A stretch of DNA of 34,687 bases from Nitrospira sp. (lineage in GTDB: Bacteria > Pseudomonadota > Gammaproteobacteria > Acidiferrobacterales > SPGG2), in the NCBI GenBank assembly GCA_019456345.1, contig VRUB01000011.1, positions 1 to 34,687 on the forward strand, read 5' to 3'. The notes under the pieces were generated by a model, which did no database searches, had not been told where the DNA came from, and was given only the letters and a program-made list of their open reading frames with translations. The position numbers and the translations under genes are program-made. Position 1 is the stretch's first letter. The number at the start of each line of letters is the position of its first letter. This document shows, piece by piece, positions 17,829 to 22,830 of the stretch.

Positions 17829-18279
17829 GACTAGTCCATCATCTACATACGCGAGGCTTGCCAGTGTCAGCACAAGGCGAGCGGTGGAGCCCCGTCTGCG
17901 CTCCCGAACAAGCCCCGAATGGGGGCGAGAGCAGGATGCCTCGCCCGAGCGCCGGGACAGGGGTGAGCCGGGCAAAGACGAGTGCCCGGTGGACGCTCGT
18001 CCCGGCGAACGGGCCTGCCACAGACGGCAAGCCCCGGGCTTTGATGCCCGCCATCCGTGGCGTGCCCCCTGCGGGTCGCCTCCGGCGGTCCAATTTCGCT
18101 CCCGGCGAAATTGTCAAGCATCGCAGGAGAGCATAGCGATGAAAGTCCCGTCGGGCGGCTCGGGGCGCAGGCCAGAAAAGGCGAGGAGTGGTACAGGGAC
18201 GTACCGTCCACGGAGCCGAGGATGCAAACCCTGGAGCCGCTTGCTGACACCGGGGAGCCCGTACGTGGCTCAATCGGCC
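17829..18279. repeat. GC-rich structured repeat island between phoH and the nrdJ stub
   Basis: No real gene, although GC-rich open frames cross it on both strands. Segment 17957-18040 is clearly related to 21696-21780 (shared ACAGGGGTGAG, CCGAACGGGC or CGAACGGGC, GGCAAGCCCC or GGCGAGCCCC), with compensating changes in the stems (ACGAG/CTCGT here, AAAAGTG/CACTTTT there). Segment 18095-18160 is repeated at 22696-22761. Its right edge meets the point where nrdJ homology ends. Confidence 0.8.
18095..18160 (+). repeat. 66-bp dispersed repeat, copy 1
   Basis: It begins TTCGCTCCCGGCGAAATTGT and includes GCAGGAGAGCATA. About 60 of 66 bases are identical to 22696-22761 in the same orientation. GGCGAAATT and neighbouring sequence can fold back on TTCGCTCCCGGCGAA. 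Confidence 0.85.
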
Positions 18280-18765
18280 TCACGCTCGATGCTGCAGCAG
18301 TGTGGCGCACATGCTGTCCCAGATGCGCATGAAGGAAACGGGACCGGAAGCGATACTCCCGGTCGTGCGTGCCCGCGTGCCGTATGGCCGCAGGGTAGAG
18401 AAATCGTAACCCACGCCCCCTCCCTGCTGCATGGTGAGCGCACCTTCCTTAAGATTATCGAAAATGCTGTCCATCGAGTCCTCGATGATCCCCATCACAA
18501 AACAGTTCAACAGCGTGACCTTGTGATGAGTCCCGGCACCGGCCTGGATGCGCCCCCCCGGGAGAAACTTGAAACCCTCCAGCACCCCGCAGAAATGCTG
18601 CTCCCAGTGCTCACGGTCTTTGCGTTCGGTTCCCGCCAACGCGCACGCGATGCGCTGCCACGTATCTGCCACCGTGCGATCATGGATCACGTTGCCGACA
18701 CGGTAACGGTACTTGGTGTCCCAAATGTGGCGGGCGATGTCGGTGGTGAAATACTGTCTGGTCAT
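18280..18765 (-). pseudogene. nrdJ: 5' fragment of adenosylcobalamin-dependent ribonucleotide reductase
   Basis: A 161-codon frame with class II ribonucleotide reductase N-terminal sequence: ISR-like start, HIWDTKYRYR, FKFLPGGRIQAGAG, VTLLNCFVMGIIEDSMDSIF, GALTMQQGGGVGYDFSTLRP, GPVSFMRIWDSMCATLL. After ATLL the family continues STGARRGAMM, but here the frame reads QHRA and stops, at the edge of the repeat island. Most of the catalytic barrel and the C-terminal cysteines are missing, so the product cannot be active. Ribonucleotide reduction must be supplied by another gene. The start is ATG at 18765, with a GTG directly before it. Confidence 0.85.
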
Positions 18766-18784
18766 CACTGAGGTGTCGGGACGG

Positions 18785-21588: not shown

Positions 21589-21643
21589 AAAAGGACGCGT
21601 GGTCACTGCTCCCATAATCTTCGACCATAGCCCAACATATGTT

Positions 21644-21844
21644 TTGAGCGTTTATTTCTGAGACCGTTGCCAGCAGGGATGCTGGCACCGAGCCTACAGG
21701 GGTGAGGCCGACGAAGGAAAAGTGCCAGTGACACTTTTCCCGGCCGAACGGGCTCGCCACGGATGGCGAGCCCCGGTCCTGCAAGCGGAGCAGGATTGCG
21801 TAGCGCCGCAGGTATTCACGGCGTGTCTCAGAAATAAACGCTCA
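21644..21844. repeat. 201-bp MITE-like element with perfect 21-bp inverted ends and internal hairpins
   Basis: The ends are TTGAGCGTTTATTTCTGAGAC (21644-21664) and its exact reverse complement (21824-21844). Inside are at least three hairpins: GCCAGCAGGGATGCTGGC, GGAAAAGTG/CACTTTTCC, and GGGCTCGCCA/TGGCGAGCCC. The centre (21696-21780) is related to 17957-18040. No target-site duplication is convincing. There is no coding capacity. Confidence 0.85.
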
Positions 21845-22022
21845 ATGCATGTCTGCGCCGCAGCCCATTCGAAAGACGCCTTCCAGTTTTAACGGTTTTC
21901 AAAAGGTCAGACCGAGATTTGTGGCGCGGTAGTGACCCGTGGTTGTAGTGTTTCGCGGAAACGGGCGGGCGGCTATAGGGTGTTCTTGAGCAGCTTGCGT
22001 ACGGTGCGCAGCGGACGCGCAT

Positions 22023-22508: not shown

Positions 22509-22830
22509 AGATTAAGGTGTTGCCTGCGGCGACGATTTACTAGCCGGGTCTCGTCCCGGCGGACGATGTCCTTTCTTGTCGCGACAAGATAAGGATGCAA
22601 AGAAACGCTCCCCTGACTCTGCGCTACGCAGCGAAAAGCGCTGCGGGGTTTCCGCGCTCGTCGGTCGGCTTAGAAGGTTCGCGGAAGGAACTTTCTTCGC
22701 TCCCGGCGAAATTGTCAAGCGTTGCAGGAGAGCATAACGATGAAAGGCTCGTCGGGAGGCTTCAGGCCGTGGCGGAAACGGCAGAACGTTGGAGCCGACC
22801 GGTGACGCCGGCGGGACGCAAGCAACGCAC
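22509..22830. other. 322-bp gap between polX fragment and rtcB, mostly repeat sequence
   Basis: It contains the second copy of the 66-bp repeat and further GC-rich hairpin sequence (for example GCGCTACGCAGCGAAAAGCG near 22620-22640). The minus-strand open frame over it resembles the frame over the 18095 copy only because the DNA is repeated. No gene is supported. Confidence 0.6.
22696..22761 (+). repeat. 66-bp dispersed repeat, copy 2
   Basis: About 91% identical to 18095-18160 in the same orientation. Flanking sequence differs, so the unit moves or is copied as a module independent of the 21696-21780 module. Confidence 0.85.

Follow-up and report, generated by a model that had tools for sequence, protein, structure and literature searches.

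The window, that is, the whole stretch of 34,687 nucleotides that was analysed, carries a MITE-like repeat on the plus strand at about positions 21604-21934. Within it lie 21-bp inverted repeats, TTGAGCGTTTATTTCTGAGAC, located by sequence match at 21644-21664 (+) and 21825-21845 (-); no match to TTGAGCGTTTATTTCTGAGAC with up to three mismatches occurs elsewhere in the window, and none in 100 shuffles. The preliminary description of the locus took these repeats for the ends of a 201-bp element. They are indeed exact, but the span that they delimit, inclusive of both, is 202 bp (21644-21845), and they are not the ends: homologous copies run outward to CTGTCCCACAA and TTGTGGGACAG, which here places the limits of the carrier, as deduced from the related copies, at about 21604-21934, with CACTGCTCCCATAATC and GATTTGTGGCGCGGTAGTG as its outer ends. 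Because homology extends outward, the 21-bp repeat was rejected as a transposon end, and a role as the transposase end is not supported. The element strand folds with -152.8 kcal/mol (z = -7.4 versus shuffles), and a carrier hairpin, GCCAGC[AGGGAT]GCTGGC, with GGA in its loop, is located at 21666-21689 (+).

The best-kept and shortest relative of the carrier (locus L016) measures 206 bp and contains no core unit. CTACAGGGAAGTATT in L016 corresponds to CTACAGGG, the core and GTATT in the window copy, which indicates that a small carrier hairpin holds the core in its loop as a cassette; by this comparison the insertion point corresponds to CTACAGGGAAGTAT of the short carrier. CATTG occurs to the left and right of L016 as a possible 5-bp direct repeat, and at the window copy no clear target-site duplication is seen. 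The carrier has the short terminal inverted repeats, the several dispersed copies and the zero coding capacity of a MITE, and its earlier classification as a MITE-like modular repeat family holds here apart from the transposase-end role assigned to the 21-bp repeat. A transposase with matching ends, which had been envisaged, was not found: the genome of the window (G000; 2.99 Mb in 413 contigs, assembly 84.6% complete) revealed neither a transposase-bearing copy nor a copy of transposase size between matching ends. The carrier is a MITE-like vehicle without a detectable transposase and one of several vehicles of the core.

The core unit and its copies in the window

The core unit comprises 116 nt (21700-21815, +) and scores 124 bits with R1, a covariance model based on 57 units. 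Its fold begins with helix P1 (21706-21710/21741-21745), which encloses the hypervariable helix P2 (21717-21724/21732-21739, apex CCAGTG), both within 21706-21745 (+). These are followed by helix P3, GGGCTCGCC[ACGGAT]GGCGAGCCC (21750-21773, +), whose loop CACGGATG conforms to CANGGANG, and by helix P4 (CCTGC/GCAGG; 21777-21812, +), which surrounds P5, GCGGAGC[AGGATT]GCGTAGC, with a second GGA loop.

The core also occurs without this carrier. A second carrier type with imperfect inverted ends (17855-17872/18242-18259) extends over 17855-18259 (+) in the window and has relatives on contigs C66, C258 and C217. It contains a degenerate core unit (17961-18148, +; 73 bits), the P3 loop of which, ACAGAC, lacks GGA, and a small hairpin with a GGA loop, GGTAC[AGGGAC]GTACC (18190-18205, +). 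The core sequence reported to be common to the element and this second locus was recovered at 17957-18037 with 81% identity. A 66-bp module had likewise been noted at 18095 and 22696; both copies are present (18095-18160 and 22696-22761, +; 91% identity), the second beside other sequence, but they do not constitute a separate second family; they consist of a replacement hairpin joined to the 3' part of the core unit, P4/P5. A fragment of the large subunit of ribonucleotide reductase (18280-18768, -) comprises the all-alpha domain and the barrel up to position 71 of 523. It ends at the second carrier, where either the gene is broken or the assembly has a chimeric junction at the repeat.

Distribution of the module

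R1 finds 94 matches in the genome of the window, in agreement with the earlier proposal of a repeat family with further copies. Many of them are located at contig ends, as expected of repeats. A third context of the core is found at L048, L050 and L054, and core units also occur in tandem and nested within one another. In a complete genome (G082, contig C1, 1015893-1016872) at least seven units follow one another in tandem at a spacing of about 145 bp. Other assemblies contain 58 modules (a Muproteobacteria assembly), 32 (Halomonas salipaludis) and 16 (the complete chromosome of H. socia); no module copies were found on plasmids. The distribution across gammaproteobacteria is broad and patchy, since 32 of 185 genomes sampled across the class carry the module. 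The preliminary description did not foresee this spread far beyond the genome of the window, nor the nesting of units, nor the tRNA fusions and GGA loops described below.

Conserved structure

Alignment A1, which was derived from sequence only, comprises 57 diverse units. Standard pairs occupy 95.6% of its pair cells, and both sides have changed in a compensatory manner in 26 of 34 pairs. The compensatory cells number 339, versus 94 in shuffles, and none of 500 shuffles reached the observed value of any measure. The covariation score is 0.485, compared with 0.141 after shuffling and at most 0.094 when the helix partners were slid, which left 33-43% of the positions paired. The observation that stems differ in sequence and still pair, originally made within the window, thus extends to 57 copies, with covariation well above background. 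RNAalifold, unprompted, returned essentially the same helices and added pairs 3-54 and 4-53, the latter of which covaries. An invariant 2x2 G-A/G-A loop separates these two pairs from P1; the tandem G-A (columns 5-6/51-52) is retained in at least 56 of the 57 units, and a GNA/GNA loop in P5 is retained in most copies.

Paired change could also arise in a purely DNA-level hairpin repeat of the REP/BIME kind, in which template-switch correction or a hairpin-recognising enzyme would preserve the pairing and GG in the loop would serve as the recognition or insertion site. Arguing against this possibility are the non-Watson-Crick motifs, which selection on an RNA would be expected to keep, whereas simple palindrome correction would erase the invariant G-A mismatches. 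In addition, G-U pairs outnumber A-C mismatches in the stems (32 versus 14) on the GGA-bearing strand. These two features, together with the strand specificity of the GGA loops and the sense placement seen in two settings (see below), favour RNA over cruciform DNA. Of the earlier suggestion that an RNA or cruciform structure is maintained, the structure stands and the choice shifts towards RNA; the evidence for a repeat family maintained as structured RNA is strong.

GGA loops and the CsrA/RsmA motif

In the P3 loop, A-N-G-G-A-N, the fixed positions are occupied by A in 57/57, G in 57/57, G in 56/57 and A in 57/57 units and both N are variable, while the C-G pairs that close P3 are fixed in at least 56 of 57. 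Read with its closing pair, the loop is C-A-N-G-G-A-N-G, i.e. CANGGANG, the published RsmA/CsrA motif; the Rsm site has been given as 5'-A/U-CANGGANG-U/A-3' (PMC4353343). The P5 loop is mostly C-A-G-G-A-N-N-G, and the unit presents two hairpin loops with CANGGANG or GGA, as found in CsrA/RsmA-binding RNAs. In units from distant families the P3 and P5 loops vary in length (CAGGAG, CAGGATG, CACGGATG) and GGA is retained. The loss of the P3 GGA from the degenerate unit at 17961 counts against CsrA as the partner.

GGA loops are also frequent in hairpins outside the unit. Within 250 nt on each side they were present in 29 of 102 flanking hairpins in sense and in 6 of 102 in antisense orientation, compared with 90 of 1437 in control DNA; these counts are not independent, some of the hairpins belong to neighbouring units, and like all enrichments given here they were found post hoc and include related copies. 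The MITE's own hairpin, GCCAGC-AGGGAT-GCTGGC, is one of them. Because of the agreement with the motif and the strand asymmetry, CsrA/RsmA is the best candidate for the partner as far as sequence can indicate.

A structured RNA might have another role, as a 3'-end stabiliser, a processing signal or a tRNA-operon spacer to which another protein or none binds. We consider this rather improbable, since the fixed and variable loop positions match the CsrA/RsmA motif one by one and GGA loops recur in nearby hairpins that are not part of the unit. Support for another role comes from the location of units right after stop codons in Halomonadaceae, from their fusion to tRNA leaders, and from a 99%-complete genome (G141; L333, L334) with weak unit matches in which no csrA match was obtained at E 1e-5.

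The csrA gene in module-carrying genomes

The genome of the window contains a csrA gene with a canonical N-terminal sequence (G000 contig C172, 60516-60710). It is the sole csrA found there and sits at a contig end, with a reading frame still open where the contig stops. Among the 185 class genomes no association between csrA and the module was observed, csrA being present in 28 of 32 carriers and 131 of 153 non-carriers, which counts against CsrA as the partner. In 6 of 26 genomes R1 matches directly follow csrA on its own strand. Most of these genomes have tRNA-Ser after csrA, in a cluster csrA-tRNA-Ser-tRNA-Arg, and the units are fused to fragments of tRNA-Ser(GCT). A functional linkage to csrA was rejected as confounded; the adjacency is not counted in favour of CsrA because tRNA-Ser is a sufficient explanation.

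Genomic context and tRNA fusions

The units lie between genes. Those of Halomonadaceae are more often than not located after the stop codon of a same-strand gene (37 versus 12, p = 5e-4), mostly at a distance of 25-60 nt, about 40 nt. In the genome of the window the units show no preferred orientation relative to the upstream gene (13 versus 11), which speaks for a DNA-level repeat and against the reading favoured below. Gene calls for both counts came from a simple codon-usage finder.

5' fragments of tRNAs were identified upstream of 17 of 112 units in sense and 0 of 112 in antisense orientation. In several families the tRNA sequence breaks off either within the D-loop, at nt 18-19 (Arg, Phe, Ile, Met, Ser), or at nt 42-43 (Ser), and an intact tRNA, often of the same kind, usually lies downstream of the fused unit. 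Fused units occur in several genomes (L329:3090-3570, L313:1550-2110, L301, L302, L303, L326); none was found among the copies of the window or among those sampled from its genome. The arrangement resembles a targeted insertion after which the tRNA was reconstituted. A mini-element that targets tRNA genes, inserting site-specifically at their D-loop or anticodon arm and leaving behind a 5' fragment, with an intact tRNA further downstream and with all other copies secondary, would account for these junctions and their exclusive sense orientation. Such an element is nevertheless very unlikely as the basis of the family: it would explain the spread and not the constraints on GGA and covariation, fusions are missing from the sampled copies of the genome of the window, and the junction may reflect microhomology at GGG. 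Integron attC sites were also considered and rejected, as the unit junctions have no consistent core site.

Units were also found in GG-containing loops of the P3 hairpins of other units. GG in a hairpin loop is a recurring insertion context, because units reside in P3 loops, in tRNA D-loops (nt 18-19) and in the carrier hairpin CTACAGGG. This context is the strongest point for a reading at the level of DNA or insertion and the most surprising by-product of the analysis. REP/BIME sequences are intergenic mosaic hairpins, which the module and its mosaic arrays resemble. Unlike REP/BIME, however, its GGA loops are strand-specific and persist despite changes in loop length, a sense bias exists in Halomonadaceae and at tRNAs, and no mobilising enzyme was found among the terminal-repeat pairs checked. 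A repeat shaped exclusively at the DNA level thus appears unlikely.

Relation to known RNAs and repeats

Several GGA hairpin loops per RNA are also a feature of CsrB/CsrC and RsmX/Y/Z/V/W, which are encoded by dedicated sRNA genes in one or few copies, whereas the module is a 116-nt unit whose copies number in the tens and are dispersed, nested or in tandem. Correia/NEMIS MITEs and composite BOX elements are short, have terminal inverted repeats and a modular core, and lack coding capacity, like the element in the window. The module differs from them in having several unrelated carriers, in its occurrence across families, in RNA-type covariation and in its GGA loops.

TwoAYGGAY (RF01731) consists of two hairpins with ANGGAN loops and a tandem G-A in a stem and has been proposed as a CsrA decoy (PMC4333381). 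The module shares the two GGA loops and the tandem G-A, and a similar argument for CsrA was made for TwoAYGGAY, which is not described there as an interspersed repeat (PMC4333381). The TwoAYGGAY model does not match the module: no match was obtained in the genome of the window at E up to 10 or in a cmscan of the carrier loci. Rfam reported nothing at gathering score over the element in the window and only weak matches on units at related loci; unit L202 has a sub-threshold match to RsmW (27 versus 52 bits). Near a unit of a Thiotrichales assembly a sub-threshold match to the gyrA RNA was observed (L202:4759-4845; RF01740, 30 bits, E 0.0017). The literature searched contained nothing relevant on interspersed repeats of CsrA sites.

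A proposed dispersed CsrA/RsmA-binding module

With moderate confidence we favour a module that is a structured RNA with two GGA loops, most likely bound by CsrA/RsmA, either as a decoy or as sites tethered to mRNA, and that has spread as repeats. In this model the module is predicted to be transcribed, whereupon the GGA loops of P3 and P5 would most likely bind a CsrA/RsmA dimer. Each copy would act as a CsrA decoy, with a predicted titration of the protein, or as a site where CsrA lands on a 3' untranslated region or on a tRNA-linked transcript. The module would have increased in number as DNA through several carriers, in the window through a transposase-less MITE-like element, a mode of mobility that is likewise predicted.

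Csr/Rsm decoy RNAs are commonly viewed as the products of a few dedicated sRNA genes. More tentatively, and as a possibility rather than a probability, mobile and tandem repeats may have scattered a two-site CsrA/RsmA-binding module over tens of loci in each of the patchily distributed gammaproteobacterial genomes, with a preference for GG-containing hairpin loops, both GGA hairpins of copies already present and tRNA D-loops, such that the CsrA capacity of the cell would be set by copy number and by transcription of the host genes and tRNA operons. If this is true, mobile DNA would be linked to the dosage of a global post-transcriptional regulator, which could be rewired between related species, and bacterial interspersed repeats, which usually remain unexplained, would acquire a concrete, testable function.
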